Shown: in pieces, positions 1 to 16,342 of the stretch | How positions within the stretch are numbered: position 1 is the stretch's first letter | Layout of the letters: each line of letters begins with the position of its first letter | IMG/VR virus record: IMGVR_UViG_3300037137_000176 | Coordinates: 1-24,500 of that record | Direction: 5' to 3' (one strand) | DNA length: 24,500 nt | From: a virus | Program-made: the position numbers and the translations under genes | The notes under the pieces: model-generated | Databases searched by the model: none | Told to the model about the DNA's origin: nothing | Seen by the model: only the letters and a program-made list of their open reading frames with translations

Positions 1-240
1 CGATCCCGGTAGAAGCCACTACCGCTACGACCGCTGGGGCCCCGAACGCCTCAGCGGTCGCGATCCCGGTAGAAGCCACTACCGCTACGACCGCTGGGGC
101 CCCGAACGCCTCGGCAGTAGCTATCCCGGTCGAGGCCACTACCGCTACGACCGCTGGGGCCCCGAACGCCTCAGCGCTGACGATACCCGCCAGCGATTCT
201 ACTGCCACTACCGCCGGTAGCCCGATAGCCCCGGCCGTCG
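1..240. repeat. 60-bp tandem repeats (20-residue protein repeat)
   Basis: Units start at 1, 61 and 121 and are near-identical. They share long identical blocks and differ mainly in the last ten bases and at a few positions of unit 3. A fourth, clearly degenerate unit occupies 181-240, and traces of a fifth follow. The period is exactly 20 codons, so copy-number change keeps the frame. The array may continue left of the window. Confidence 0.93.
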
Positions 241-301
241 GGATTCCTGCGCTATTGATTGTGGCTGCGCCTACCCCGCCGGCAGATAGGAGCAGCGACA
301 T
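1..301 (-). CDS. Tandem-repeat virion protein, N-terminal part (runs off left edge)
   Basis: An open frame starts at ATG 301-299, one base after the TAG stop of the upstream gene, and is still open at position 1, so about 100 N-terminal residues are visible. It begins MSLLLSAGGVGAATINSAG and then settles into 20-residue repeats of the type GIATAEAFGAPAVVAVVAST, encoded by 60-bp tandem DNA repeats. From memory, repeats with the core G-I-A/P-S/T-A-E-A-F-G-x-P occur in many phage tail or surface proteins, so a fibrous or surface virion role is likely. No strong Shine-Dalgarno is visible, and coupling to the upstream stop is probable. The function is inferred from repeat type and position only. 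Confidence 0.7.
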   Translation of the reverse strand, partial: MSLLLSAGGVGAATINSAGIPTAGAIGLPAVVAVESLAGIVSAEAFGAPAVVAVVASTGIATAEAFGAPAVVAVVASTGIATAEAFGAPAVVAVVASTGI

Positions 302-1806: not shown

Positions 1807-2130
1807 TTACCCCTGTGCGTGTTGTTCAAAATCAAGAGAAAGTACGCGCCCATGCTGGTCGCGAGACTTTACGGTGACGGTCCATGTGCCGCCAGATTTC
1901 GCCATAATTGCTGCGATCTTTTCTAATTGAGCGCCCTGTGCGCTCTGGTGTTTGGTCAAGGAAGAAACAACTCTATCTAAGGATTCGATCAAGGCTGTTG
2001 GTTGTTGCTCCACCACTACTGGCTCCGCCGTTTTTGGAGTGAGAGCAGGCGCTTTTTTTGGCGGCAACACATCCGGCCGATACTGACCCCCTAGCCGCGC
2101 CACATCCTCGCTCTTTATGACGATAGGCAT
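1807..2130 (-). CDS. Hypothetical protein with Pro-rich N-half and helical segment, 107 aa
   Basis: The gene begins at ATG 2130, inside the last 16 bases of the 2171-codon gene, in another frame. The best upstream purine run is AAAGG about ten bases away. The N-terminal 40 residues are Pro/Lys-rich (LPPKKAPALTPK) and probably disordered. Residues about 45-75 could form a helix or coiled coil (IESLDRVVSSLTKHQ), and the rest, about KSGGTWTVTVKSRDQHGR, looks like a beta hairpin. I do not recognise a family. Its position suggests an accessory virion or assembly factor. Confidence 0.7.
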   Translation of the reverse strand: MPIVIKSEDVARLGGQYRPDVLPPKKAPALTPKTAEPVVVEQQPTALIESLDRVVSSLTKHQSAQGAQLEKIAAIMAKSGGTWTVTVKSRDQHGRVLSLDFEQHAQG

Positions 2131-5100
2131 GATATGAGCCTTTGCACTTTCTCTGCATCGCTATCTATGCTCGCCAGGGCCTCACCAGCCGGCATAGAAA
2201 CATCCACCTGCCTTCCTGTCTCGCTTTCGATGGCGCTGACCTTCACTATAGCCGCTTCGTTCAGTTTGTTTTGGGTAATAGGGGACGGAGTAGAGGTAGC
2301 AGAAAACTCGCTGTTCGTGTCGCTCATGTTCTCAATAAACCGATTGATGGCGACCCGGCTGTCAGATGCAACATACCCCTTGAAGTTCCCGGAATCCCAA
2401 TACTGAGCCACATACTCCCAGTTGTTGTTGAGGTATTTCTCCAGTTCCGGGCCTGTGACCATGAGATTGTTCATGCCCACTATCGCTTGCTCTGCCTGAC
2501 TGGTTGCTTCTTTGGTGGCAGCAACACCCTTGTCCAGCACTTCTGCCGCCTTCGCTTTGATGTGTTCGGCAGTAAAGTATTGTGCTTTGTAGGCATCCTT
2601 CTTAGTCTCATTTGCTACGTAAGCAGGGGTGTCTTCCTTGATCTTTTCCTCGAACAAGGCGATGCCGTCCGGCTTCATCAGTTCCTTGACACGAGCAAAT
2701 TGCGCGTCTCTCGTGTTGCCTATGAATTGGAATCCCATAGACTCGTGAACGATGTCGTACTTTACCTTTGGATCAAACGTTCTGATCTGCGTACCATCAT
2801 CCTCCGTCCACGCAACTTTACCTGCATCCTCAGAGGAACCGAATGCCGATACGTCATACGTGGCACCAGGAACGGTGCTATGTTCTTTGAAGAACTTTGC
2901 CATCGTGAGGTTGGGGTCTAGCGCGAGCGTCTTAATGCTGCCGCCAGAGAGTTTCGTAATCGTCTTGTTAAACGCCCCCTCGCTGGCGGCAATATCTAGC
3001 AGTCGAGCACCGCTCTCGCTATATGCCTTAACTATGGCGTTGCCAACGATCTGCTGAACCTCGCGAAACCCAGGAATGCTGGTGGCAATGTGATCGTCGA
3101 AATTGCCGCGATGTGTAACGTATTCATCGCTAAACGCCTTGATGCCAGAAATGTCCAGCACCGGCTTGTACGTCTTGACATCTGGCGCGCGCTCTCCGCG
3201 TGACGCGGCAGAGAAAAAGTTTGTGAATCCTCTGCCGTCACCCCGAAGGTCTGTGGATGCTACGCTACTCTTGAAGATGGCAGTATCCTGTGGAACCAAT
3301 GAGAACGCGGTACCATCAGGCAACACTGTATGATCCCCCTTAAGGGCTGCGGGTCCAACGACAGTGGCATCGTGATTCCACGGCTCCACGTGTCCGTCTG
3401 TGTACTCCAGTCCATTCGTGGTGGCGATGGACTCTTGCTTAAAGCGTTTTGCTATTGCCAGAGACTCGTCTGCGGGGGCAAACATCAGAAAGTTGCGCCC
3501 TTGATCGACGCCCTTGTATGTGCCGGACACATCGTAATGCTCTATCCCTCGCTTCGTCAAGAGAGAGTCCAGAGCATCGTTTGCAACGGCGTTTGTGTCT
3601 GCGTCATGCTCATCTTTATTGGCGGTGACTATAGCCCAGCCGGTTTTTTTGAGGGCGGCCTCTGGGTCTTCGCGGAAGTCGTCGTAGACGGCGTTTTGCT
3701 GTTCTTGCGGCGCAACGCCAGTAACGTTGCCGCCGCTTTCGTTTGTGCTTGATCCAGGAGTGTCATAGTTAATCCCGTGTGCTTGTAGCGCTTCTTTTGC
3801 GCCATCGGAAAAGAATTTAGATGCAACGCCAGCGCCCAACTTGATGTACAGTTGTTGCTCGAAAAACCACAACACCGCCTGCACCTGACTGTGGCTGTAC
3901 CCTTCTGATTTGGCTACATTTCTAACCAACAGCTTGATGGCTCTGCGTTCAGGCTCAGAGGGCGAATCTTGTAACTGTCCTTGCTTGTTTACCAGAAGAC
4001 CGAACTGACGCAAGAAGGTTCGTGTCAACCACTTGTCAACCGTGACCTCTGTGTCGATGCCATTCAAGTTCAACGCAAATGGACCCACTTTCGGTCCAAA
4101 CAAATACACGCCTAACTGGGTGTTACCTTTCTTGCCGGGAACTGCGGGGGTTTTGAAAACACCAGACCGCATCCTCTCTGCACGTAACTCTGCAATGGTG
4201 TGTTCGGTCAACAACCATTCTGTGGCACCTTCTCTGCCGCGCTCCGCGATCATGAAATTCAGATGCGCTATTGCTTTTGCGTTATTTTTTCCGTAGAGAC
4301 TCCACGCTGCCCCGGTATTCGGGTCTGCTTCTGGAACCAATCCTGTTTCGACAAAGTGCCTGTAGGCGTCAATGGCATGAACCCAGTTTTCGTTCGCCTG
4401 TGTTGCCGGCGACAGAATGGCTGCCACTATACTGTACGTTTGGCGATGGCTCTCGTCATTCAATTCTGGAATGAGGCGCGTTGAGAGTTCGTATGCCTGT
4501 TTGATATCTCCACTGTACCAGTCCAACCCGGTTCTGGACTGAGTTATTTGATACTGGAATTCCTGCGTCACCATCTTCACGGCGCGAGCAAAGTGTTCTG
4601 GATTTTTGAAGTCCAGTGCTCCACCAAACTGATCGCGTATCAAGGCATCAAAATGGGCCCCTATTTCCTCTATGGTATTCTGCTTCTTGCCGAGAGGATT
4701 TTTGCTTTCGTCTCGATAGGTTACGGCGGTGCTTACATTGCCGGGCTCGCCGTCACCTTGAAGCTGTCTCCGTTCTTCAAGATAGTTTCGTGACCGCTCA
4801 GAAAGGAATTCTCCGACAGGGGCAATTCCTTCCCCGACTCTACCGCCAACAGCACCCTCTGGTCTGCGTATAACGAGTTGTAGTGGCTCAGGTATTGTGG
4901 AATAGGTTGATTGAAGCGACGCTCGTATTGCTGCGCGGGCGTCGGAGATTGTGGTGGTTTTATTGAGGGCATTATGTGCATCCTTCATCATGGCGTACGC
5001 TTTAGGAAGCGCCGCCTTCAAGAGTGGGCGTTGCGTGTAGTATAGCACACTTAATTGCGCAAACAGTTCCTCGCGAACCATGTTATGTACGGCCACCATG

Positions 5101-8100
5101 CTACCGTAACCGCTCGCCATGGCCTCTTGCGGGTTCCATGTCAAAGCCACGAAAGGGTATGACAAAAAAACTTTCAGGTTGTGGTTTGCGGTAGTTAGCC
5201 ACACCTCTTTGGCTTCTGCAATCACGGCACCAGGATATGTGCGTTTATGACTGACAGGGTCTATCGCAATCTCAAAGAGAGGAGAACTGTAACTAGACAC
5301 ATCGTTGCGACCATTCACCTTGCCGAATGTATCTAGCTCGTGGCCTAGCTCATGAATCAACGTTTGAAACAATTGCCTTCCTGCGGCTTCGTTGCCATTC
5401 ACTGCGGCCTGAAACAAAGCGTCATTAAACCCTATGCTTCTTTCATTGTCGCCTATCAGCCCATGACGCCCGTTTTCTTTTGTCGTGCCCGGGGTATATA
5501 GGTGAAAACTAGACAATCCTTTGATGGCGGCGTCTGGTACTCCGGCCGCCAGCACGTCCCGAATGAGCGCTGCCAGCACTGGATGTTCGCTGATGTTGAG
5601 CGACCTGCCTCCGCCAATATCTTTGATTACTCTGGATGTGTCTCTTACAATTAACTCAGCGTGTTGCCTAACTTCACTCAACGACGCTTTGAGTGGTCCG
5701 CGCTTGATGTTTGAATGAATAGCCAACGGCGACGACCATCCGTCGCCACTTTTCTTGATTGTCAGCCTACCCTCTAGGATTACGGTAGTACCCATTTTGG
5801 GTACTATAGTACCCGTTTTGGGTACTACTTCACCAGCCCCGAGTTGATTATCCCCGGTGACGCGCCCCGCTTCTGTTTGACGTGCTGTGGTAGCTTCAGT
5901 CCCTTGCTGGCCTTGTCCCACTCGGCCACCTTCCCCGCCCCTCCCAGGGCCTTCAGTCCTGCCGGGCTGTGTGCCCACCCCCTCTGCGCTACGCTGGCGT
6001 AAGGCATCGTTCACTCCTACTGGTTGTTCACGTTTCGTGGACACAGTCTGGTTCTGAACAGACTTCGCTTGTTGTCGCTCTGCTGCTCGTGCTTTAGCTT
6101 TGTCGAGGCTGACGACTGTTTTTAGGGTCGCCGCCAGCGCGTCATGTTCTGCCCCTGCCGGCAGGGCACCCATCTGTTGCAGAATTTCTGTAGCCTGAGC
6201 GCGGCGCATTGGATCATGCGGCACCCATACTTGCTCGACGGTGCTCTGGTTGTCGTACTGTACCGCGCTCGCCGGCAAGGCTTTGCCATTGATACCGATA
6301 TAGACCGATTGTTTGGAGCCGTCTGCGGAAGTGTGCTCCGCCATGACGCCGCCAGTGGTCGCGATCCTCGGGGAAATCTTGAAGGAGCTACCGGGCTCGA
6401 CCCCAGAGACGGCCCCGCCCGCTACCGGCACACCGGGGACATGAGGGGCGGTGGGCGTGGGCGTTGCCAGCGAGCCTACGAGTTGTCCGTGTTGTTCTGC
6501 GGCCAGGGCGCGTAAATGCGCGGCAGCCGGAGCTCCGTACCGGGTGCCGTAATGTTGAATAACCTGTCTGGCTTGATCGCGTAATTGGGCCGCCTGGGCC
6601 ACGAGCGGGGCGCGCTCTGGGGCGGGGGCGGCCTGCGCTTGCCGTTCCAGGTCGCTGGCGTGTAACAGGATGCCTGCCACATCCCCTGCCGTTTGTCCAT
6701 GCAGCGTCTCACTGACTCCGGGTGGAGCGGCACCTAGGCTTCTCTGCCTGTGTCCTGTGACCGGGGTCAACGGGGCATCTACAATAGCCTGAATCGAGGC
6801 TAGCGGGTTTTGGGTATCCACCTCTATCTGGCTGGGCGTAAGGGCCACTAGACGAGCTTCTTCCGTTGCTCTGGCCGCATACACCGCATCTGCGTGCGCT
6901 TGCGCCTTGTCGACCACCGGAACCTCGGTGACAGGCAAAGGCTCTGCCATCGCGATAGCTACTTGATTAGGATTAGGAGGTGGCAGCGCTGGCACTGGTT
7001 GCGCTGTTGGCGTTTGTGTTTGTTGTGTTGGCTCCAGAGTCAGAGGATCGACCCCAGATGTATCGTTTGTTGCTGGATTGACAACGGGACTGACAACGGG
7101 CCTTTCACCAGGACCGGCAACAGTGGAGGCAGGTGTTTTTTGCGAAACTGGAACTTGCAACGAAATGGGAACGTTTGACGCAATGGCTACCGATGCCTGC
7201 TTAGACCATGCGGCAGCTGCTTCTTTATTGACGACAGCAATATTGTCAAAAACTACTTTGGCGGCAGCGGCGCGCATCAAGGGTGGCGCGTCTCCGTTCT
7301 CTAGCGCGGCAGCAATTCGTGTATTTGCTGCGGCCCTATTGACTACGTGACTCAACCCAAATGGAGCCAGCATGGTTGTCATAACCAGAGCAGCGCCAGC
7401 CCCCTGCAACCCTTCCTTTATAGGATCATGCCCCTTCACTCCGTACGACGATTCGACGCGGGCCTCCAAATCGTTTTGGAGATATTCCGTACCCGACTCC
7501 CCTAGCGTAGTTTTTGCGAGTTGCCGAAAGAATGGTTTGACGATTCCGGTTTCCGTGACATCGCGCACTGCATTGCGTGCGGCAGCCTGCCCTATGCCTT
7601 TGAATGTTTTAACGCTGACCCCCAACAGCTGAGCCCCAAAGAGGGTGCCAGCCGCTTCAAATCCGCCCTCGATAATGTAGTTGATCCAGCCGGCTTGATT
7701 GGCGTCTCGCTCTGTTCCTCCTGCGGCCAACACGGCTTCTTTGGTTTGTTGTGCCTGCGAGCCACCATACAACGCGAATCCGCCAGCCACTATCGCACCA
7801 GTGGCCGCCACCGCCCCCAGCGGAGCAGCCGCTATTGATGTGCCCAGAAGGGCGGCGGAAGGGGCAAAAGCTCGCGCCCCCTGGGATATGGCCGTCCCTA
7901 CACCCCCCCGTCCATCTAGTTGCGCTTGAAGATAGGGGTTGTCTTGTTCGCTACGACTTGCAGCGTGAGCTATGTCTTGCCCCATTTCGTATGTGGTCTT
8001 TCCGGGCTCAGACATCCACTGCAATGCTTGACCATACATCTTCGGTAAATCTACCGCGCCCCCGGCGGCAAGTTGAGCATAAAACTCATCTTTGAGGGGC

Positions 8101-8630
8101 CGCAACTCTTCTGATGGTTGCGCTACTGTTGCTGTAACTGGAGTATTGGAAACGCGAGCAGCAAGCACTGCATTCTGCGCAGACTGCGGAGAGTATCCTT
8201 GCCCAACGAGCTTTGCTGCCTGTATGTTCTCTTGAGTTTTTCTGCGCTGCTCGTTGCTAATGATGCTGGCATTTTTGAAACCACCGGCTGCTTGTAAGTC
8301 TACCGGAGTTTGCTTTGCTGCATCAAGCGCGTCATTGTGTTGCTCCAAAGTAATGGAGCTACGTTCAGCTGGACGAGGAGAGAGAAACGCAAGAGGGTTG
8401 ACGCTGGGCGCAGCCGAGGGCGGAGCAGAAGTCTCGTCCGGGCTTAGTATGGGGGAGTAAGGCTCGGGCGGCTGGGCGAGCGGGATCACCGGCCCAGTGT
8501 AGTCGCCCGGCTCCGCGTTGCGCGCAGCTGGAGTGCGACTCACTTGATCCCCCGCGTCTAAGGGGATCACTGGTCCTGTGTATTCTATACCTTGATCGAG
8601 TGGGACTACCACACCCGAATAGTCTTCCAT
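2115..8630 (-). CDS. Giant polyvalent ejection protein: HELGH metallopeptidase motif, DUF3293-like and methyltransferase-like regions, 2171 aa
   Basis: ATG 8630 follows the upstream TAA directly, with AAAAGG eight bases before it. Visible layout: three short Y-[ST]-G-x-V-[IV]-P-L motifs (residues 4-11, 17-24, 44-51); a hydrophobic Ala/Gly-rich segment around 250-300; long Pro/Ala/Gln linkers; a zinc-peptidase motif HELGH at 1093-1097 with a possible third ligand in EELFAQ (E1187/E1188); a conserved-looking helical region about 1320-1600 (RTGLDWYSGDIKQAYEL) resembling domains of phage polyvalent proteins; a DUF3293-like region about 1660-1745; and a SAM-methyltransferase-like region from about 1870 with motif I LLDIAASEGAF near 1879. 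Polyvalent proteins are known as phage- or plasmid-delivered effectors entering the cell with DNA. Cluster position supports an injected internal virion protein. The domain names are from memory, and activity is not shown by sequence alone. Confidence 0.88.
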   Translation of the reverse strand: MEDYSGVVVPLDQGIEYTGPVIPLDAGDQVSRTPAARNAEPGDYTGPVIPLAQPPEPYSPILSPDETSAPPSAAPSVNPLAFLSPRPAERSSITLEQHNDALDAAKQTPVDLQAAGGFKNASIISNEQRRKTQENIQAAKLVGQGYSPQSAQNAVLAARVSNTPVTATVAQPSEELRPLKDEFYAQLAAGGAVDLPKMYGQALQWMSEPGKTTYEMGQDIAHAASRSEQDNPYLQAQLDGRGGVGTAISQGARAFAPSAALLGTSIAAAPLGAVAATGAIVAGGFALYGGSQAQQTKEAVLAAGGTERDANQAGWINYIIEGGFEAAGTLFGAQLLGVSVKTFKGIGQAAARNAVRDVTETGIVKPFFRQLAKTTLGESGTEYLQNDLEARVESSYGVKGHDPIKEGLQGAGAALVMTTMLAPFGLSHVVNRAAANTRIAAALENGDAPPLMRAAAAKVVFDNIAVVNKEAAAAWSKQASVAIASNVPISLQVPVSQKTPASTVAGPGERPVVSPVVNPATNDTSGVDPLTLEPTQQTQTPTAQPVPALPPPNPNQVAIAMAEPLPVTEVPVVDKAQAHADAVYAARATEEARLVALTPSQIEVDTQNPLASIQAIVDAPLTPVTGHRQRSLGAAPPGVSETLHGQTAGDVAGILLHASDLERQAQAAPAPERAPLVAQAAQLRDQARQVIQHYGTRYGAPAAAHLRALAAEQHGQLVGSLATPTPTAPHVPGVPVAGGAVSGVEPGSSFKISPRIATTGGVMAEHTSADGSKQSVYIGINGKALPASAVQYDNQSTVEQVWVPHDPMRRAQATEILQQMGALPAGAEHDALAATLKTVVSLDKAKARAAERQQAKSVQNQTVSTKREQPVGVNDALRQRSAEGVGTQPGRTEGPGRGGEGGRVGQGQQGTEATTARQTEAGRVTGDNQLGAGEVVPKTGTIVPKMGTTVILEGRLTIKKSGDGWSSPLAIHSNIKRGPLKASLSEVRQHAELIVRDTSRVIKDIGGGRSLNISEHPVLAALIRDVLAAGVPDAAIKGLSSFHLYTPGTTKENGRHGLIGDNERSIGFNDALFQAAVNGNEAAGRQLFQTLIHELGHELDTFGKVNGRNDVSSYSSPLFEIAIDPVSHKRTYPGAVIAEAKEVWLTTANHNLKVFLSYPFVALTWNPQEAMASGYGSMVAVHNMVREELFAQLSVLYYTQRPLLKAALPKAYAMMKDAHNALNKTTTISDARAAIRASLQSTYSTIPEPLQLVIRRPEGAVGGRVGEGIAPVGEFLSERSRNYLEERRQLQGDGEPGNVSTAVTYRDESKNPLGKKQNTIEEIGAHFDALIRDQFGGALDFKNPEHFARAVKMVTQEFQYQITQSRTGLDWYSGDIKQAYELSTRLIPELNDESHRQTYSIVAAILSPATQANENWVHAIDAYRHFVETGLVPEADPNTGAAWSLYGKNNAKAIAHLNFMIAERGREGATEWLLTEHTIAELRAERMRSGVFKTPAVPGKKGNTQLGVYLFGPKVGPFALNLNGIDTEVTVDKWLTRTFLRQFGLLVNKQGQLQDSPSEPERRAIKLLVRNVAKSEGYSHSQVQAVLWFFEQQLYIKLGAGVASKFFSDGAKEALQAHGINYDTPGSSTNESGGNVTGVAPQEQQNAVYDDFREDPEAALKKTGWAIVTANKDEHDADTNAVANDALDSLLTKRGIEHYDVSGTYKGVDQGRNFLMFAPADESLAIAKRFKQESIATTNGLEYTDGHVEPWNHDATVVGPAALKGDHTVLPDGTAFSLVPQDTAIFKSSVASTDLRGDGRGFTNFFSAASRGERAPDVKTYKPVLDISGIKAFSDEYVTHRGNFDDHIATSIPGFREVQQIVGNAIVKAYSESGARLLDIAASEGAFNKTITKLSGGSIKTLALDPNLTMAKFFKEHSTVPGATYDVSAFGSSEDAGKVAWTEDDGTQIRTFDPKVKYDIVHESMGFQFIGNTRDAQFARVKELMKPDGIALFEEKIKEDTPAYVANETKKDAYKAQYFTAEHIKAKAAEVLDKGVAATKEATSQAEQAIVGMNNLMVTGPELEKYLNNNWEYVAQYWDSGNFKGYVASDSRVAINRFIENMSDTNSEFSATSTPSPITQNKLNEAAIVKVSAIESETGRQVDVSMPAGEALASIDSDAEKVQRLISCLSS
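4733..4972 (-). CDS. Candidate nested gene in alternate frame, 79 aa
   Basis: Inside the 2171-codon gene, another minus-strand frame is open from ATG 4972 to TAA 4735-4733. An AAGGA ribosome binding site lies eight bases upstream of this ATG, whereas the ATG at 4981 overlaps it and is too close. The product, beginning MPSIKPPQSPTPAQQYERRF and ending SFKVTASPAM, has balanced, protein-like composition. The host frame over the same bases reads as a Gly/Arg/Glu-rich linker between the peptidase and the following helical region. I recognise no family. It may be an overprinted gene or a chance open frame. Confidence 0.35.
   Translation of the reverse strand: MPSIKPPQSPTPAQQYERRFNQPIPQYLSHYNSLYADQRVLLAVESGKELPLSENSFLSGHETILKNGDSFKVTASPAM
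5786..5827. repeat. Two back-to-back 21-bp palindromes
   Basis: Two perfect 8-bp stems TAGTACCC/GGGTACTA with 5-base loops (ATTTT and GTTTT on the plus strand) occupy 5786-5806 and 5807-5827 without a spacer. The second overlaps the stop codon of the nested 60-residue gene. In the frame of the large protein they encode two 7-residue repeats, V-P-K-[TM]-G-T-[IT]. As RNA they would form tandem hairpins. A protein-binding dyad, a transcript-end structure or a mobile palindromic repeat are all possible. Confidence 0.85.
5825..6007 (-). CDS. Nested small phage protein (MPYxSxAQxxWAH type) ending in GIINSG tag, 60 aa
   Basis: This frame lies wholly inside the 2171-codon gene in a different reading frame. 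ATG 6007 has a TAGGAG ribosome binding site about six bases upstream. The product opens MPYASVAQRGWAHSPAG, continues with KVAEWDKASKGLKLPQHVK and ends SPGIINSGLVK. The first two thirds match, from memory, a common family of small phage proteins starting MPYKSxAQ with W/F-H, E-W/F-D-x-A-S-K-G and L-P motifs; their function is unknown to me. The C-terminus carries the same peptide as four other proteins in this cluster. Host-frame residues here are a low-complexity Gly/Arg/Gln linker. Start signal, family resemblance and shared tag together make a real gene likely. Confidence 0.75.
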   Translation of the reverse strand: MPYASVAQRGWAHSPAGLKALGGAGKVAEWDKASKGLKLPQHVKQKRGASPGIINSGLVK

Positions 8631-9722
8631 TTACAGTACCTTTTGTCTTCCTTCTGGAGTGCGATATACCGCCTTGCCGTCTGGGGTCGTGCCAATCTGC
8701 ACCCATCCGGGAGGAGGGGCCGTGGGCGAAGATGTAGTAGCTACAGGAACCGTGCCGCCCGCTCTTTTTATGGCATCCTCAATGGCGGCGATGTTGTTGG
8801 TGTGTACTCTGATCCCGTTGGGGTTCTTTTGTTCCTCTGGATCGGAGAGAGCCGCTTTTTCTGAGGCCCATGCCGCTTTCAGAGTGGAGATTTTCTTTGT
8901 GGGCTCAGTCTCACCAGGAACAAAGGCCCCAGACTGCTCTTTTGCTGCCTCCGTCTTAGGATATTTTTTCGCCACCTCGTCGGCGGATACCGGCTGTAGT
9001 TTGGAGTCAAAATACTGATAATATCCAGGCGTCCCTGCGACGGCCGGCTTGTCACCCCACTTCAGAAACCAAAGGGACGAGCCCGGTTTGGCTGGCACTG
9101 GATCAACGCCATTAACCCATTTACGAGAGATTTGCGTATTGTCGTCGAATTGTGTGCCGTTGGGTTTGCCGTCGTCCCCAATCACGGCCTTGAAGTTTTG
9201 CATGTCGTTTTTCTGTAGCTTGTCGCCTGTGGTGCCTTTGGCTGCGGCATCTGCGCGATACTTATCTGCGCGCGCCATAGACTCATCTATCCTCTGTGCC
9301 AGAAGGTCTTGCTCCAGGGCGGTTAGTTTGTGTTCTTCTGTGTCGACAATGGTTGTCCCGGTCTTCGGGTTCACCACCCTACTCCCCTGAGGAACTGTAA
9401 TGGGACGGTTTTTGTCTGCCTCTACCTTAGCTGTCTCTGTGGCGGTCGTCATAGAGCCGGCGTTTGCCGCCGCCCCAGGACCGAGTGCAGCCTGTCTGCG
9501 CACCTCTGCGGCTGTCACGGTATCGAAGTTTTGGTTCGTCAAATTCTGATTGAACGTAGCCATTGCCTGTTGGTTTCCCAGGGTCAGCTTTGCAAGCATT
9601 TCAGCGCGCAAATTTTCTGCGGCAACCTTTTGCTTTTCCAGTTCGTCCTGCTGAACTGCTCCGGCAGCGCCAGCGACTCCACCTATCATGCCCGCTGCAA
9701 TTACTCCGCCCCATCCGCCCAT
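8631..9722 (-). CDS. Probable internal virion / DNA ejection protein, 363 aa
   Basis: ATG 9722 overlaps the upstream stop (TAATG), with GGGAG seven bases before it. The N-terminus is a Gly/Ala-rich hydrophobic stretch (residues about 2-23, VIAAGMIGGVAGAAGAV) followed by a long charged helix about 25-70 that could form a coiled coil. The middle is hydrophilic and Lys-rich. The C-terminus, GWVQIGTTPDGKAVYRTPEG, resembles a short module often found at the ends of phage internal proteins. The layout of hydrophobic N-terminus plus helical body, and the position between other internal proteins, suggest a protein ejected with DNA into the envelope. No enzymatic motif is visible. Confidence 0.75.
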   Translation of the reverse strand: MGGWGGVIAAGMIGGVAGAAGAVQQDELEKQKVAAENLRAEMLAKLTLGNQQAMATFNQNLTNQNFDTVTAAEVRRQAALGPGAAANAGSMTTATETAKVEADKNRPITVPQGSRVVNPKTGTTIVDTEEHKLTALEQDLLAQRIDESMARADKYRADAAAKGTTGDKLQKNDMQNFKAVIGDDGKPNGTQFDDNTQISRKWVNGVDPVPAKPGSSLWFLKWGDKPAVAGTPGYYQYFDSKLQPVSADEVAKKYPKTEAAKEQSGAFVPGETEPTKKISTLKAAWASEKAALSDPEEQKNPNGIRVHTNNIAAIEDAIKRAGGTVPVATTSSPTAPPPGWVQIGTTPDGKAVYRTPEGRQKVL

Positions 9723-10492
9723 TATTGTGCTCCCGAATTAACGATTCCGCCGACCGGGGGTCCGGGCGGTTGCGCAGTTGGTTGGCCCTGGGTGGGCGGA
9801 ACACCTTGCGGCTGATTGATGGTTGCGGGTGCGGCTGATTGCTGGTTGGCCGCCGACTGCGGTTGCTGCCACTTGATTCCGCCAGACGCCAAATCGCTTT
9901 GCGCTTCGTTCTGTACGTCCCCAGTGATTTGATGGTTGTCGATCATAGAGCGCCCAATTTCCTTCATCCCCTCAAGCGCCGCAGCCTTGCTCACGTCTTC
10001 CCGTTGCGCTTCCTGCATCAAGCCGGAACCAATGGCGATGGTTACGAGATCGGCAAGCACTTCTTGACCAGCATGAAAGAGAATGTCATCAGCTACCTGA
10101 GCGCCCTTCTTCTTCGTCTCGATGGTGCGCTTGACGGACAGCATAATCATCGCCGCAGTATGGCCGATGGTTTGCGAGATATTATGTTGTCCAGAGCCCA
10201 ATTTCATGATGATCGTAGCGGTTCCCCCGCGAGAGTACATCATGTTTAGCGCCAGGGTGACAACGGTGTCGTATTGGTCTTGCTCTTCTTTCGTCACGTT
10301 CGGGGTATCATTCTGCGCGTCCGCTCCCGCACCCTCAAGTGAGGTGGGGTCGGACGACATTTGATATGGTCCGGTTTGCTGATCTTGTGCGGTATCTGGT
10401 GACGACGACTCTTGACTCGTGTCTACCCGATCCTCTGCCGGAGATTCGGCATAGGCATCCTGAGCGCCCATCATTGGTTGCGTCATGTCCAT
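9722..10492 (-). CDS. Ejection-cluster protein with C-terminal GIVNSG tag, 256 aa
   Basis: ATG 10492 has a GGAGG ribosome binding site five bases upstream. Residues about 1-65 are acidic and Gln/Ser-rich, probably disordered. Residues about 67-175 form a mostly helical core (EEQDQYDTVVTLALNMMYSR, later FHAGQEVLADLVTIAIG) that looks like a conserved phage domain I cannot name. The last 45 residues are a Pro/Gln-rich tail ending PPVGGIVNSGAQ, the Val variant of the peptide shared in this cluster. Its stop overlaps the next start. Probable role: internal virion or chaperone-like protein packaged with the ejection proteins. This rests on context only. Confidence 0.75.
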   Translation of the reverse strand: MDMTQPMMGAQDAYAESPAEDRVDTSQESSSPDTAQDQQTGPYQMSSDPTSLEGAGADAQNDTPNVTKEEQDQYDTVVTLALNMMYSRGGTATIIMKLGSGQHNISQTIGHTAAMIMLSVKRTIETKKKGAQVADDILFHAGQEVLADLVTIAIGSGLMQEAQREDVSKAAALEGMKEIGRSMIDNHQITGDVQNEAQSDLASGGIKWQQPQSAANQQSAAPATINQPQGVPPTQGQPTAQPPGPPVGGIVNSGAQ

Positions 10493-10493
10493 G

Positions 10494-11312
10494 CTACCCT
10501 CCTATCTGTCCGGTATTGATAATACCAGGAGTGTGAAACGTAGGGCCCCAGGAGCCAGTCAAATCAGGAACCTGACCTCGACGAACAACGTCTGCCCGGC
10601 TTTGGTCATAGCGACGCTGCTCCGCATCCATCTGCTGTTTTTGTCCATATGCCCCGATCAATGCTTTTCCGCCCTCGATGAGTCCGCCAGCGATCATGCG
10701 CCGAGTCAGCGAATCGTCTTGCAGCAACCACTTTGCTCCAGCGTTCACTTTTTGAAAAATAGTGTTTGCATTTTGCGTAGGTTGGGCGGCTGTATTGAGT
10801 ACCGATTGACCAATATTTTGATTGCCTACAGGAGAGCCAGAAACAACCCCCTGGCCGCCATTAGCCAAATCAAGATTGGCCTCGTGCGCAGCCAGTTGTG
10901 TGGGCGTATAACCCGGTTCTGTGGGCGCAAGAACATCAGCCCCAACTCCCGCAGCGGCCCCCGCCCCTATGCCGCTTTCTGTGGCGGTGGCCGCAAGCCC
11001 AGGCAGGTAGGCATCGCCCGCCACAATAGCCGTTGCACCCTCAGACGCCAGCACTCCGCCAAACGTTAGCCCAGCGCTTGCCATTGCCGCTGTTTCAACA
11101 GCGGTAGCCCCGAAAGCCCCTACACCGGCAATGCCCAGGGCTTCTGCCGCCCCCGCAATTCCAGGCAAGGTTGCCGCAAATGTTGAGCCCAGCGCCCCCG
11201 CTGCCAACCCGCCGGTAAAGTAGATGGCGGCAGAAATGAGAACGGCCTTGAAGATCGGGGACTTCACAATCTTCTTGAAGACTTTGGCGATACTCTTGAA
11301 TACGTTGCTCAT
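10494..11312 (-). CDS. Membrane-active internal virion protein with C-terminal GIINTG tag, 272 aa
   Basis: ATG 11312 overlaps the stop of the acetyltransferase gene (ATGA), with CGGAG seven bases upstream. The first 20 residues form a basic amphipathic helix (FKSIAKVFKKIVKSPIFK), followed by a hydrophobic segment (VLISAAIYFTGGLAAGALG, about 24-42) and a long Ala/Gly-rich, weakly hydrophobic region to about residue 100. This layout is typical of phage proteins that insert into the host envelope during DNA ejection. The C-terminal half is hydrophilic, with a charged segment QQMDAEQRRYDQSRADVVRR, and ends FHTPGIINTGQIGG, carrying the shared peptide. Localisation is inferred. Confidence 0.8.
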   Translation of the reverse strand: MSNVFKSIAKVFKKIVKSPIFKAVLISAAIYFTGGLAAGALGSTFAATLPGIAGAAEALGIAGVGAFGATAVETAAMASAGLTFGGVLASEGATAIVAGDAYLPGLAATATESGIGAGAAAGVGADVLAPTEPGYTPTQLAAHEANLDLANGGQGVVSGSPVGNQNIGQSVLNTAAQPTQNANTIFQKVNAGAKWLLQDDSLTRRMIAGGLIEGGKALIGAYGQKQQMDAEQRRYDQSRADVVRRGQVPDLTGSWGPTFHTPGIINTGQIGG

Positions 11313-11776
11313 ACCACACTCCGATCCATTGTGAAAAAACAGCCAATGTGTTTAAATCCTAAGCGGGTGTACATTGCCGCTGTCGACTTGATGCTTTTTT
11401 CTCCGCTGGACACGGCCATCATAAGTCGGTCCACTTTGCGCTCTTCTAGCGCCCACACCTTGAATCGTTCGAGTAGTTTGCGGCCAGCACCCGGAGACTC
11501 AGAGTACAGTGCTATGTCTGTTGCAAACTGCATCTTCACAAACGGGTGTTTGTCTTCTTGCCCCAATATCACACCAACTATCTTACCGTCGGACTCCGCA
11601 ATATACGCGCACAATGTTTTGCGCACAATGCAGTTCGCTATCAACAACTTTACCGATCCTTCGTCGTACGCCAGCGCCGCAAACTCGCTTTTGTCGTGCC
11701 CACGCTTTCCTAGCTCACAAATTGCTTCGATGTCGTCCATCAAGGCAGAACGAATCACGAACTGCGGAGCAGTCAC
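11309..11776 (-). CDS. GNAT-family N-acetyltransferase, 155 aa
   Basis: The start is GTG 11776-11774, directly after the TAA of the upstream gene, with a strong AGGAGG-type ribosome binding site. GNAT enzymes move an acetyl group from acetyl-CoA to an amine. The sequence fits the fold: N-terminal RSALMDDIEAICEL (strand 1, helix 1), central strand IAESDGKIVGVILG, strand ATDIALYSE, then motif A SPGAGRKLLERFKVWA where acetyl-CoA phosphates would bind, and C-terminal MYTRLGFKHIGCFFTMDR. Length is normal for the family. Its place among internal virion genes is notable. Substrate unknown; a virion or host protein, or a small molecule, is possible. Confidence 0.9.
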   Translation of the reverse strand: MTAPQFVIRSALMDDIEAICELGKRGHDKSEFAALAYDEGSVKLLIANCIVRKTLCAYIAESDGKIVGVILGQEDKHPFVKMQFATDIALYSESPGAGRKLLERFKVWALEERKVDRLMMAVSSGEKSIKSTAAMYTRLGFKHIGCFFTMDRSVV

Positions 11777-13441
11777 TTACCCTCCTCCTGTTCCTGGGTC
11801 AACCGGCGGTGTCGCGGCCGGCGGCGGTGCGGCCGCAGGGGTTGTCGGAATGGTGCCAAGGTTGATTTTGAACCCAGGCGGCATCCACGGGTTTCCAGCA
11901 AACATCGCGTTCCAGTTGTTGATGGCCTGTATTTTTGCGTCCGGCTCCATCTGCGACGTTTGATACTGATTGATCCCGCTGGCGTAAATGGAAAACGTGT
12001 TGGCCTGCAAGCTTTGCAAGGCCAACTTGTCTTGCAATTGTAGCTGAACTTGCGTCTTATCCAGCTGCATACCAGCAATCTTCAGGTTGGCGTCGATCTG
12101 CATTCCTGCGATTGTCTTGTTGGCCTCAACCTGCATCGCCTGAACCCGCATCTGGGTCGAGTTGCTGGAGTCGCTAAGATAGCGCTTGAGTTGCGAGTCC
12201 TTGTCGAACAGATAGTTGTTCTGCTTGAAAGCCTCGTACGCCTTTTGAAGATCGAGCTTTGCCCCCTCTTGCATGGAGAGGAATTGATTGGTTATATTCT
12301 GGTTGACAAGGTTTTGATTCTGGAACGCCTGTGCATCTGCTTGCGCTATAGGTAGCGCCGCAGCGACAATCGCCTCTTCTCCGGCCTGCGCTGCCATGGA
12401 TGAATTCTGCAATCCACGAGCATTGGCTGCCTGAATAGCGCGAGCTTTGGCGGCCTCCAGGAGCGGGCTCCCTGTTTTGAGTATGTTGTCCAGCTGGCCT
12501 TGTACCGTTCCGGCATCTGGCCCGGTGCGCGTGACCTGAGACATCTGTGGTTGAACGTCTGCGCTAGGCGGAGCTCCAGGAATGGGGCCTACGTTACCTA
12601 CCGTGCCGGAATTGATGATCCCGGTATCCGGTCCCGGACCTCCAGGATACACGCCCCCAGGAGCGCCGCCGCCACCGCCACCGCCACCACCACCGCCGCC
12701 AGGAGGCGGAGTGCCACCGCCACCAGGAGGAGGAGGAGTGCCACCGCCACCGGGAGGCGGAGTGCCACCGCCACCAGGAGGCGGGGTGCCGCCGCCACCG
12801 GGAGGCGGAGTGCCACCGCCACCAGGAGGAGGAGGAGTGCCACCGCCACCGCCACCGCCACCAGGAGGCGGGGTGCCACCACCACCGGGAGGGGTGCCAA
12901 TATCCACCTGCTGCGGCTTCCAGTTGTTCCAGTATGCCTGTACCGCAAGCGTATCGGCATAGGGATTACCAGTCGGCGTGATGTTCGTGCCGAAGATGGC
13001 CGCCGGACTGGTGTTGATAGGGCCGCCCAAAGCTGAATTAACGCCACCGGGTTGGTTCTGGAGGGGCAGTCCTGTGCGCGGATTGATGGCCTTGTACCAC
13101 GACCCATCGGCATTCACGTACGAGCCACTGGCGGCGTCATACGTCACCCCAGGAGGTAATGGGGCCCCATTGATGCCCACTCCCTGATTGAAGCTAGCAG
13201 ACTTCTGTTTCGTCGTTTTGCCGGCGTAATTGTTCATGCCGTTGTGTATGAGGCCACCCATCGCACTCGGATTCAAGCCACCGTTGTTCAGGGTATCCTG
13301 AATGAACGCCTGTGACGTTCCGATAAGAGATGGATCAACGCCCGGGTGATTTTGGGCATTGACTAACTGCATACGCTTCTGATACGCGGCGTATCCTTCT
13401 GGGGTGGAGAGGTCTTCTCCGAACGCGTTGATGTTGGACAT
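11777..13441 (-). CDS. Ejection-type virion protein with Pro/Gly repeats and internal GIINSG motif, 554 aa
   Basis: The product has a hydrophilic N-terminus (residues 1-180) and a Pro/Gly repeat tract of units like GGGGTPPPG (about 182-261). The peptide TGIINSGT lies at 274-279, followed by a long helical body (about 300-510) and a Pro/Ala/Gly-rich tail. The helical body contains ARGLQNSSMAAQAGEEAI and ALPIAQADAQAFQNQN, a pattern I recall from a widespread family of phage internal or ejection proteins (R-G-L-x-N-S-S-M-A core). Heptad-like KTIAGMQIDANLKIAGMQLD suggests a coiled coil. It is the second gene of the ejection cluster. The Pro/Gly tract is probably a flexible linker, not a collagen helix, because it lacks G-x-y periodicity. 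Confidence 0.85.
   Translation of the reverse strand: MSNINAFGEDLSTPEGYAAYQKRMQLVNAQNHPGVDPSLIGTSQAFIQDTLNNGGLNPSAMGGLIHNGMNNYAGKTTKQKSASFNQGVGINGAPLPPGVTYDAASGSYVNADGSWYKAINPRTGLPLQNQPGGVNSALGGPINTSPAAIFGTNITPTGNPYADTLAVQAYWNNWKPQQVDIGTPPGGGGTPPPGGGGGGGGTPPPPGGGGTPPPGGGGTPPPGGGGTPPPGGGGTPPPPGGGGTPPPGGGGGGGGGGGGAPGGVYPGGPGPDTGIINSGTVGNVGPIPGAPPSADVQPQMSQVTRTGPDAGTVQGQLDNILKTGSPLLEAAKARAIQAANARGLQNSSMAAQAGEEAIVAAALPIAQADAQAFQNQNLVNQNITNQFLSMQEGAKLDLQKAYEAFKQNNYLFDKDSQLKRYLSDSSNSTQMRVQAMQVEANKTIAGMQIDANLKIAGMQLDKTQVQLQLQDKLALQSLQANTFSIYASGINQYQTSQMEPDAKIQAINNWNAMFAGNPWMPPGFKINLGTIPTTPAAAPPPAATPPVDPGTGGG
12660..12898. repeat. Pro/Gly-coding GC-rich tandem repeats
   Basis: On the plus strand the tract repeats GTGCCACCGCCACCAGGAGG-type units of about 24-27 bases with small changes, encoding (G)GGGTPPPG on the minus strand. 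Unit lengths vary by multiples of three. Long open frames on both strands here arise from the repeat. The tract is prone to slippage, so copy number may vary between isolates or assemblies. Confidence 0.9.
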
Positions 13442-13488
13442 ATTATTCCTGTGCGCCTCAGATCACGTGAGCCTAGACTGGCCTTGTG
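13442..13488. other. Short intergenic gap
   Basis: These 47 bases separate the GIINSG-ended small protein from the Pro/Gly-repeat protein and hold the upstream region of the latter. I see no terminator or promoter in them, and only a weak ribosome binding site before ATG 13441. Confidence 0.5.
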
Positions 13489-13812
13489 TTACACGCCGGA
13501 ATTGATGATCCCCACGCGCTCTCTATTGGGGCCCTTTTGGCCGGCTCTATTCGCCGGGGAGTTTGGGGCAATCAGAATAGGTTGCTTCGCAGGCGCCATG
13601 CCGGAAGTCGGAACGGCAGGTTTCACGCGAGGAACGCGAGGGGTAGACGGGGCAGCGCTAGGGGTGTTGATTCCCCGGCTCTGGTTGTACATAGGAGTCG
13701 TGGGCATCGGGTGACCCGTGGCCGCCGACCCGGCTCTCGCGCCGCCTACCAAAACCTGTCCAGGAGCGGCGTTTGGTTTTGGAATGTTTGTTCCAGGAAA
13801 GTACGTTGTCAT
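13489..13812 (-). CDS. Disordered Pro/Ala-rich protein with C-terminal GIINSG tag, 107 aa
   Basis: I place the start at ATG 13812 because it overlaps the upstream TGA (ATGA) and has GGGGAG seven bases before it; a longer frame to 13827 lacks such a signal. The product, MTTYFPGTNIPKPNAAPG onward, is rich in Pro, Ala, Gly, Ser and Arg throughout, has no predicted globular core and ends NRERVGIINSGV. The shared peptide is thus two residues from the end. It opens the ejection cluster right after the tail genes. A small cargo, adaptor or assembly factor with a docking tail is plausible, but no family is recognised. Confidence 0.75.
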   Translation of the reverse strand: MTTYFPGTNIPKPNAAPGQVLVGGARAGSAATGHPMPTTPMYNQSRGINTPSAAPSTPRVPRVKPAVPTSGMAPAKQPILIAPNSPANRAGQKGPNRERVGIINSGV

Positions 13813-14249
13813 GGTGTTGCTCCCCACGTGGTTGTTGTAACATCAGCGCCGGAATAGGCTATAGTGCAAACGTAAAACCCATGTTCGTCGAGCATTGGAA
13901 CATAGCTTGCTTCATTGTCGGACGAGTAGTATAGTGCCATCTTCGTGACGTTTGCGCCTGTCCATGTCACATCGGCCTTCAACCACTCTGTTTGATTGGT
14001 AATGGTGCCAGAAGTTCGAAAGTACACTCTATTCGGCTTTGCGGCCGTTCCTGGGGTGCCTTCGCCCCTTGTTACGGAGTTAGTGTAATCCCAACCAAAT
14101 ACCGCAACCTGTGGTCCGAAGTGGGCTATCGCAAGCATGGCCTGTAGAGCATAGAACTTCTCTCTAATTCCCGTGAACTGTAGTGGCGCGTTTTCCAGCG
14201 GGAAGCGTTCTATGTACGGCTTCCATAGACTCGGATTGAAAAGAGTCAT
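13809..14249 (-). CDS. Hypothetical tail-region protein, 146 aa
   Basis: ATG 14249 overlaps the stop of the nozzle-like gene (ATGA), with a GGGGTGAAG purine run upstream. The N-half (MTLFNPSLWKPYIERFPLEN, then REKFYALQAMLAIAHFGP) is helical and aromatic, and the C-half looks beta-rich (TGANVTKMALYYSSDNEAS, then GFYVCTIAYSGADV). No catalytic motif or membrane segment is seen. Position directly after the nozzle-like gene suggests a tail or neck accessory protein. I cannot assign a family. Confidence 0.72.
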   Translation of the reverse strand: MTLFNPSLWKPYIERFPLENAPLQFTGIREKFYALQAMLAIAHFGPQVAVFGWDYTNSVTRGEGTPGTAAKPNRVYFRTSGTITNQTEWLKADVTWTGANVTKMALYYSSDNEASYVPMLDEHGFYVCTIAYSGADVTTTTWGATP

Positions 14250-16342
14250 CGCTTCACCCCGACCGGAGTAAACTGCAATAACAGAGCGGACATCGTAAAC
14301 GGATCATCCACGGCGTCGACGTGATAGATGGCTATCCCGATAGAGCGCCCGAGTCCGTCAATGTTCGTCTCTGGCAGAGAGAGAACCCCGCTGTTCCAAA
14401 ACAATTCACCGAACAAAGCAAAATCAGATAGCACAGATGTTCTGCCCACTCCAGCGGAAAGCCTTAGCGGCTGTCCACTGTTTCCATAGTCGAAATCTAC
14501 ACCATAGTAGAGCCTGATTTGCCGTGGGCTTTCGACTTCGGCGGTGAGTTTGTGGAACATCTTGTCCCGGTCTGGATAGCCGTAATACTGAAACGGGAGT
14601 TGTAGTATGGATTCAATATTGGTCCCGTCAAACGAGGTTCCTGCATCCAACTCCATCACAAATCCATCGTCTATTCCGGCAAACAAACGCAGCGTTCCTG
14701 TAGTGTCTGTGCCTTCCACTGAGCACGTAATCTGATGCGCGTATTTGATAAACATCCAACCCATTAGCTTCGATCCAGAAAAAGTACCAACAACTCCGGT
14801 TTTGTCTGAGAAAAACAACCGATACTGAGATTTTGTGGTGCAGTAGATGCTGTCTACCGTGAGGCTGGCCTTTGCGAGCACTGTTTTTCGTATATTGCGC
14901 GACAATGATTGTGTGGCATAATCCTGATAGGTGGGCGGCGCGGGGAGCAAGACATTGATGGCCGCTTTGTCCATGAACAGGGTTTGTCCCGCAACGCTTG
15001 CGCCAGAGTACGGAACAGAGCCAGTGTCGTCAGCAATGGATCGTACGTTCCAATCAAGGTTACTGGTGCCGGTTAAAATATGTACCGTAAGAGCGCCGGT
15101 GATTGCGAGCGTGTTGTTGCCGTTAGAGCGCATCCCGGTGGGGTCATCTCCGGTTCCCAATTCAGATGCCCCGGTGCGCACACTCCAAACCAACGGAGTT
15201 CCTGTGCCACTGTTCTGAATCGACCCGCCCATAAATGCTAAAAACAAATGATTGCGATGCGTCTCTATGTACTTAGGAATGTCTACTGTCATTCCCGTTT
15301 CGACGTTGATGAAGTATGTGCCATCAAACTCGTATGCTCTATTGGCTCCGTCGCATCCATATACACGACGCAAGTTGGATGCACCATAGAAATTATCAAA
15401 AAGAGTTTGATGTCTGGCGTCCACAAACCCACTCACCCCGCTGTTGACTAGCATGGTGGTTGTTTGTTGTGTAGCTACAGCCTTGCATTTTGATACCCCA
15501 GCTACCTGAAGAAACTCTCCGGCACTGAATGTGCCAGTGATATTTGTTATGGCAAACCTACCGCTTGCAAAGGTGGGGCCGGCGAAGTTTCCTCCGCCTA
15601 TAGCAACGCGTCTAACAATCGCCGTGGCAGCGCTTGTAAGTCCGGTAATCGTGTTGCCTTCAAACACTTCTGCGGTTCCGGTGTCAAATCTGATATGCCC
15701 AGTTAAGGCCACGTTCGTCCAACCAGCATTGGCTTTGTAGAGTTTTTGTGTGGTGGGGGCTCCACTGTCAGCGCGCCACGCATACAGATATCCGCCGATC
15801 ATGAAGACCCCCAGCACCGGACCCGTGCCAGGACAAGCGGCCACAAGGCTGCGCCTGTAGTTCCTAGCTCCTGCTATCCACGCCTTGTACCCATCGTCAT
15901 CTACGCTGGCGGCTTGAGCGGTGCCGTCAAGCACGCACAGTTGCACGCTGCCTGCGGTGCGCAATAGGTTTTCTCCGGCCACGAACGTTCCCGCGATAAC
16001 CGTAATAGCTACCCTACCCACCGCATTTCCCGCTGCCCACGTACCGTTGTCAAGCATAGTGATGCCGGATATGTGGCCGGTGGCACCGCTCGTCCCTCCG
16101 GTAACTGCCTCCTGATCTAGCGGCTCGCTGACCCCAACTATGTACGGAAACGAGGAATACGTTGCCGCCGAAGGGGCGGTTGTGGCATCATACCTCTCAT
16201 ACCCTTGAATGCGTTTGTATCCGCCCCCAGACAGGCACTCAAAGTTTCGAGAGAAAGCAAGGCTGCCGGTCTTGATGGTGAATTGAGCATCTTCCTCATT
16301 CACCCCACCAGACAACGCAAATTGTTTTGGAACCCAGGCCAT
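14246..16342 (-). CDS. Tail nozzle-like structural protein, 698 aa
   Basis: ATG 16342 lies two bases after the adaptor-gene stop; the ribosome binding site is weak. The N-terminus (FALSGGVNEEDAQFTIKTG, then NFECLSGGGYKRIQGYERY) follows the pattern of podovirus nozzle or tail tubular B-type proteins, which form the tail tip of the tube. The body is beta-rich. Two related modules are visible at residues about 79-140 and 229-292, with matching cores GRVAITVIAGTFVAGENL and GRFAITNITGTFSAGEFL, so an internal duplication is likely. The C-terminal third contains DGFVMELDAGTSFDG and LPFQYYGYPDRDKMFHKLTA, a pattern I recall from these proteins. Length and position after the adaptor fit. Confidence 0.82.
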   Translation of the reverse strand: MAWVPKQFALSGGVNEEDAQFTIKTGSLAFSRNFECLSGGGYKRIQGYERYDATTAPSAATYSSFPYIVGVSEPLDQEAVTGGTSGATGHISGITMLDNGTWAAGNAVGRVAITVIAGTFVAGENLLRTAGSVQLCVLDGTAQAASVDDDGYKAWIAGARNYRRSLVAACPGTGPVLGVFMIGGYLYAWRADSGAPTTQKLYKANAGWTNVALTGHIRFDTGTAEVFEGNTITGLTSAATAIVRRVAIGGGNFAGPTFASGRFAITNITGTFSAGEFLQVAGVSKCKAVATQQTTTMLVNSGVSGFVDARHQTLFDNFYGASNLRRVYGCDGANRAYEFDGTYFINVETGMTVDIPKYIETHRNHLFLAFMGGSIQNSGTGTPLVWSVRTGASELGTGDDPTGMRSNGNNTLAITGALTVHILTGTSNLDWNVRSIADDTGSVPYSGASVAGQTLFMDKAAINVLLPAPPTYQDYATQSLSRNIRKTVLAKASLTVDSIYCTTKSQYRLFFSDKTGVVGTFSGSKLMGWMFIKYAHQITCSVEGTDTTGTLRLFAGIDDGFVMELDAGTSFDGTNIESILQLPFQYYGYPDRDKMFHKLTAEVESPRQIRLYYGVDFDYGNSGQPLRLSAGVGRTSVLSDFALFGELFWNSGVLSLPETNIDGLGRSIGIAIYHVDAVDDPFTMSALLLQFTPVGVKR

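Follow-up and report, generated by a model that had tools for sequence, protein, structure and literature searches.

Gene content of the window

The window, the whole 24.5-kb stretch of DNA analysed here, is a fragment from an uncultivated short-tailed phage, in which the structural genes all lie on the minus strand. In the order of that strand, these encode the portal, scaffold, capsid protein, small proteins, adaptor, tail nozzle, proteins of 146, 112, and 554 aa, a GNAT acetyltransferase, proteins of 272, 256, and 363 aa, and a 2171-aa giant protein. The capsid protein is of the N4-gp56 type, being 41 % identical to the capsid protein from this family in Pseudoalteromonas phage Y3. The tail nozzle/stabilisation protein (14246–16342, minus strand) is recognised by tblastn matches to phage stabilisation and head-closure proteins, has no match among solved structures, and was used as the query for finding related phages, which are given below by their locus labels.

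The GNAT gene (11309–11776, minus strand; PHROG 1249, E 2e-21) has a matching place in L077, G003, G015, and Y3. The cassette ends with the giant gene (2115–8630, minus strand; PHROG 4752, E 2e-14; DUF7178, E 1e-7), the product of which has a HELGHE site in its sequence, a methyltransferase-like C-terminal domain, and DUF7178, and is in these respects similar to the polyvalent proteins (PMC5512222). The HExxH is kept in the giant proteins of the relatives.

A peptide shared by five proteins

Five otherwise different proteins, all encoded on the minus strand, contain the peptide G-I-[IV]-N-[ST]-G (hereafter, the tag) in their expected coding frames. A six-frame scan using a looser pattern identified exactly five copies, the same five that had been reported in the first-pass annotation. 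GIINSG is present at 5837–5854 in a nested 60-aa ORF, three residues before the stop; GIVNSG at 9731–9748 in the 256-aa protein (p256), two residues before the stop; GIINTG at 10509–10526 in the 272-aa protein (p272), four residues before the stop; GIINSG at 12605–12622, residues 274–279 of the 554-aa protein (p554); and GIINSG at 13495–13512 in the 112-aa protein (p112), one residue before the stop. Its description as a C-terminal peptide holds for the four copies that are 1–4 residues from a stop, but the term is too narrow, because the fifth copy is internal and N-terminal forms are found in relatives. The nozzle, GNAT, and giant proteins are without the tag; the GNAT gene is within the cassette of most relatives, likewise untagged.

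The tags are within disordered tails or linkers, as was to be expected from the flexible Pro- or Gly-rich context described previously. For p256 (9722–10492, minus strand), the AF2 model has a helical domain (residues about 64–203) and a Pro/Gln/Gly-rich tail ending GGIVNSGAQ, of which residues 211–256 are predicted to be disordered (pLDDT <50); the context at the other copies is rich in Pro, Gly, and Gln. A fold search with p256 gave no match in the PDB and one match below 0.001 in BFVD, A0A2I7RSW4 (194 aa, E 4e-6), which, compared by length alone, corresponds to the protein at the p256 place in Vibrio phage 1.232.O. The p272 protein (10494–11312, minus strand) has a basic amphipathic/hydrophobic N-terminal segment and an Ala/Gly-rich body, and ends PGIINTGQIGG. 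Its predicted model, with a pLDDT of 37, was too poor to use, and no relatives were found when sought by p272 alone; orthologues are present in L077 and G003, as they are for p554. The small, basic, Pro-rich p112 (13489–13827, minus strand, from a GTG start, or from an ATG at 13812) ends VGIINSGV and has a positional counterpart in L077.

In p554 (11777–13441, minus strand), a (PPPGGGG)n linker is followed by the tag and then by a conserved core with RGLQNSSMAAQAGE. A search of GTDB genomes with the p554 alignment gave no relatives, and a match to the microvirus pilot protein H (E 3.5e-4) lay over a biased coiled stretch and was not accepted as homology. In seven very distant phages the core of this family has an invariant RGL, mostly in the form RGLxN[ST]S, and this is tag-like. 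The 363-aa protein (p363; 8631–9722, minus strand) is untagged in the window, where its N-terminus, GGVIAAG, is tag-like; it is tagged in L077 (GIVDSG) and G003 (GVVNTG). N-termini in the p363 family, such as GGVIASALAGG, SGLIWSALG, and AGLVMGNIG, have the look of a glycine zipper, itself similar to the tag.

When each of the 23 window proteins (7925 residues) was shuffled 3000 times, a mean of 0.015 and a maximum of 2 tag matches were obtained, compared with the five observed, so that the earlier judgement that chance is very unlikely is upheld. In an unbiased screen of 6-mers common to several window proteins the tag peptide came out on top, tied on count by the low-complexity SAAPST, and on shuffled proteins the screen reached at most one protein fewer than observed for the tag. 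As far as the literature could be searched, no published description of the tag was found, as the first-pass annotation had also indicated.

Selection on the peptide

Between tag copies, codon positions 1 and 2 are 92–93 % identical, and third positions are 31–40 % identical compared with 33 % from codon usage alone. The synonymous differences remarked upon previously are therefore those predicted by codon usage, with the copies at 12605 and 13495 being, as had been stated, identical in DNA (18 of 18 bases). Tag serine codons are TCN in the window and mostly AGC in L077. RNA folding z-scores at the tag sites are ordinary (−1.3 to +0.7) and there is no match to Rfam. Because synonymous sites follow codon usage and no RNA structure is found, selection acts on the tag peptide. 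It is scarcely credible that the tag is instead a DNA or RNA element, such as a hairpin or binding site, that is translated by accident. Although the copy at 10509 is a perfect short inverted repeat (GGTATT-ATC-AATACC), such an element is largely refuted by the unconserved synonymous sites, and is opposed by the folding and Rfam results and by a reading frame that is always identical.

The nested 60-aa gene

The nested gene (5825–6007, minus strand) is an overprint within the giant gene, read in the +1 frame; it encodes a protein ending RGASPGIINSGLVK and has a Shine–Dalgarno-like AGGAG (6014–6018, minus strand) six bases before its ATG. In L077 there is an overprint in the same +1 frame, with AAGGGAG preceding the ATG and AKGIVDSAAS as the tag counterpart. 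Over this interval the window and L077 are identical at 34 of 55 positions in the nested frame, compared with 23 of 60 in the giant frame; in the flanking sequence the giant frame is about a quarter identical. The body of the nested protein (MPYxSxxQR...DKASKGLKLP) has relatives in 15 IMG/VR loci and no match in GenBank phages. With homologues elsewhere, a ribosome-binding site, and a frame conserved beyond that of the giant gene, the nested protein recognised in the first-pass annotation is considered to be real.

None of the homologues from the 15 loci (0/15) has the tag; the family is tagged in just two phages, the window and L077, those in which the gene is nested inside the giant gene. 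As the homologues are untagged and both nested copies are tagged, the tag was apparently gained in this lineage by a small phage protein that is widespread. This is suggestive of a tag that may be enough to direct a foreign protein to the head. The overprinting of a widespread small phage protein family inside the giant gene of two phages, in the identical +1 frame, is also recorded here in its own right.

The tag in related phages

In L077, with a nozzle 57 % identical to that of the window, there are tags in six protein families. The positional counterpart of p112 (9891–10088) ends RGIVDSGITGKE, the p554 orthologue has TGIINSGSQ in the linker and NNTGIIDNGG at its end, the p272 and p256 orthologues end KKPSIINTGSMG and AMGIVNQAAGA, respectively, and p363 has ARGIVDSGSQ. 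In G003/G002, with a nozzle 45 % identical to that of the window, p554 has TGVIDSATAQ, TGGIVNAGANV, and a terminal GIVNTVPYTDTTSGGQ, the p272 orthologue ends NTGVVDSVTGLITGAPKP, p256 ends GGIVNQAAGAQQ, and p363 has SGVVNTGAAP. The final residues of the p256 orthologues are GIVNQAAGA and GIVNQAAGAQQ. Comparison of the window, L077, and G003, in that order, shows that the tag is kept while the linker diverges: GIVNSG, GIVNQA, and GIVNQA in p256; GIINTG, SIINTG, and GVVDSV in p272; and GIINSG, GIINSG, and GIVNAG in the p554 linker, where placement within low-complexity sequence is approximate, the G003 copy aligning with that of the window and the L077 copy not. In L077 and G003, but not in the window, p363 and the C-terminus of p554 both have tags.

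Looser forms are found in more distant phages that share the gene order. In the cultivated Pseudoalteromonas phage vB_Pun_Y3, a C-terminus reading GGLMSMAGG is loosely similar to the tag. L093 has GGGIINTALTG and, at the p256 position, a protein ending GGGIINQAQQGGM that is not homologous to p256 by sequence and has no match in GenBank phages. A p554 relative in L106 ends GGIINNARVNP. Three proteins of L116 end GILASRRG, GGLIASRRGGGG, and GLIQQARGA, the first two having paralogous tails. These paralogous tails, like the two copies with identical DNA over 18 bases, might be taken to mean that the tag is a remnant of shared ancestry or of tail shuffling, drifting without function. This is very improbable, as the other copies share residues and not synonymous bases and tags persist while the neighbouring linker is replaced.

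In G015, the nearest relative without a clear tag (nozzle 36 % identical), at most GGLVR remains and the cassette is kept, therefore the tag is not essential to cassette architecture. A large protein from another phage group (L122, 7913–11170) starts with MAGIVNKALSL, which is close to the tag, perhaps by chance.

Restriction to the cassette and mobility

The first-pass annotation had held that its reading would suffer if relatives lacked the tag or if it were equally common elsewhere. Checked in this way, the reading was not refuted. Orthologues are tagged, and across 19 loci that contain all or part of the cassette, 17 of 121 cassette proteins have a terminal G[LIVM][LIVM]x[STNQ][AGR], compared with 1 of 308 others (Fisher 2.6e-9), numbers that are indicative because the pattern was widened after the relatives had been seen and each start was set at the first ATG. 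For this comparison, cassette proteins were those encoded no more than 7.2 kb upstream of the giant gene, and the first 14 or last 18 residues were searched. Shuffled termini gave 0.79 matches on average (maximum 6), and the enrichment persists without the window and one paralogous tail (13/113, 2e-7). The residue-class order of the motif scores highest of 360 permutations, for which the mean is 0.96. Based on the shuffled window proteins, the cassette enrichment, and these permutations, chance origin of the tag is rejected. Beyond the window, six proteins from four lineages of the 19-locus set have the strict pattern at their C-terminus. A score scan built from the five window copies was unspecific at a low cutoff and its top hits alone were used.

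The tag is also able to change ends. In the p256 family, GLIQQARG is C-terminal in L116, and GLIQQAR and GLIQQN are N-terminal in L102 and L106, both of which are without the tail; membership of the family is by profile (L102, 1e-7; L106, 2e-4), with L116 being part of the profile. This bears on the suggestion that the tag is cleaved by the HELGH zincin-like region of the giant, or by another protease. The giant has HELGHE and relatives keep HExxH, some tag copies are internal, and there is a precedent in P1 DdrB, a polyvalent protein with a zincin-like domain that is processed before packaging (PMC5512222). Cleavage is nevertheless disfavoured and quite improbable: for four of the five copies a cut 1–4 residues from the stop would remove almost nothing and separate no domains, other copies are N-terminal or inside linkers, and the giant itself has no tag.

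Between families, tags are more similar within a phage (0.656) than between phages (0.494), and none of 5000 permutations gave as large a difference, for copies that were picked by resemblance. Likeness within a phage would fit self-recognition, in which identical peptides on different proteins pair as steric-zipper or kinked low-complexity segments and hold the ejection proteins together with no separate receptor. So would a short, aliphatic peptide with Gly/Pro/Gln-rich flanks and, in the p554 family, a core (RGLxN[ST]S) similar to the tag. Most carriers, however, have a single copy, and the copies differ within L077 (GIVNQA, GIVDSG, SIINTG), which suits a receptor groove at least as well; self-binding is therefore considered unlikely.

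The tag is a real short linear motif, as had been proposed for these ejection-type proteins. It is on unrelated carriers beyond chance, in disordered context, and the peptide is conserved against diverging flanks and readily gained or lost; it is kept in orthologues, appended to the nested family, confined to the cassette, able to move from one terminus to the other, and similar among the carriers of one phage.

Proposed function

Since the peptide is kept or moved in related phages, GIINSG probably serves as a docking tag, bringing its carriers together in the particle or in the injection channel. The carriers are likely to be internal (ejection) proteins, based on synteny with the ejection cassettes of podoviruses of the N4, DEV, and T7 type (PMC12633501, PMC10925440, PMC8954989). 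It is fairly likely that the tag is a portable short linear motif through which the proteins of the ejection cassette dock on one shared partner, either for loading into the virion or for assembly of the ejectosome. This partner may be the portal, nozzle, or giant protein, as suggested in the first-pass annotation, or else the capsid protein, the scaffold, the p554 core, or another copy of the tag. A short, aliphatic peptide on disordered tails that is portable, restricted to the cassette, and alike within a phage is the pattern that docking on one partner would produce, from which we infer the binding of a partner; the step that is served is judged from the synteny.

GIINSG would then be one phage's version of a portable G-Φ-Φ-x-[STNQ]-[AG], where Φ is aliphatic, placed in the flexible tails and linkers of proteins whose genes lie between those for the nozzle and the giant. 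Each tag would dock its carrier, through a short extended or one-turn peptide, on a single partner common to all, and the docked set would be loaded into the particle, kept or ejected together, or built into a channel through the host envelope. A role after ejection alone, in a trans-envelope conduit or in anchoring carriers to the host membrane complex and with no part in packaging, has a rather small probability. The carrier p272 has an amphipathic and hydrophobic N-terminus, p363, which is tagged in relatives, has a glycine-zipper-like one, and the N4 and DEV ejection proteins form a channel outside the particle (PMC12633501, PMC10925440). The nested 60-aa basic protein and p112, however, resemble cargo more than channel parts.

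More tentatively, and with some doubt, the docking tag may represent an exchangeable six-residue 'postcode' by which a short-tailed phage lineage recruits any protein, even the product of a gene newly created by overprinting, to the set that is injected. Such a tag would co-evolve with a single head or portal receptor, and GLIQQA and GLIASR would be part of the same system.

Comparison with known systems

Encapsulin cargo-loading peptides are short, with aliphatic, Gly, and Ser residues, follow a flexible linker at the C-terminus of several unrelated cargoes, and are bound by an HK97-fold shell protein. The tag matches these in being a short C-terminal peptide after a flexible linker on several carriers. 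It differs in that the window has no encapsulin and its capsid gene is N4-gp56-like, and in that tags are also N-terminal.

In phage P1, the first 30 residues of DarB direct a reporter to the capsid (PMC9024508). As a putative targeting signal, the tag is like those of DarB and of the T4 internal proteins (IPIII), which are short, portable, and borne by proteins presumed to travel within the head and to be injected (PMC9024508). Those signals are N-terminal, whereas the tag is mostly C-terminal (four of the five window copies, with one internal) and N-terminal in some distant relatives alone. Unlike them, it has just six residues and is on five or six different families and in linkers too.

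As in the cassettes of N4-like phages (Schitoviridae) and other podoviruses (N4 gp50–52, DEV gp71–73, T7 gp14–16), small and middle-sized proteins followed by a giant are encoded behind the tail genes in the window, where the capsid protein is also related to the N4-gp56 family. The giant virion RNA polymerase of the N4-like cassette is not detected; neither Pfam nor PHROGs identified an RNA polymerase family in the 2171-aa giant. For the ejection proteins of N4 and DEV, the accessible text of the two reports (PMC12633501, PMC10925440) gave no shared terminal peptide. The crassvirus cargo proteins C1 and C2 have short segments bound to the portal, tail barrel, and muzzle; unlike the tag, these are different segments of one protein at different sites, and the part of that study that was available reports no peptide common to the cargoes (PMC10172136).

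A portable tag, if true, would make the selection and placement of proteins by short-tailed phages testable, would let sequence alone identify the injected proteins of uncharacterised phages, and would provide a short sequence with which harmless reporter proteins could be loaded into phage particles. To our knowledge, the selection and placement of the proteins that leave the head before the DNA in these phages are poorly understood.

Other repeats in the window

The N-terminus of the giant protein (2115–8630, minus strand; residues 4–53) has two to four copies of a short peptide, the sequence of which is phage-specific. The same habit is seen in the giant proteins of L077, L079, L081, L093, L104, L113, L116, and L102, and the repeated peptides are YTGPVIPLD, DEFDPxRAEPVP, NPFDYLL, GLQPLD, NVFDQFD, LDEWGLPVS, LLSDADIFG, and VRGWDDE. 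They may represent another class of docking motif, serving the giant itself. At the end of the window, an ORF cut by the window boundary (2–301, minus strand) consists of tandem 20-residue repeats (ASTGIATAEAFGAPAVVAVV).
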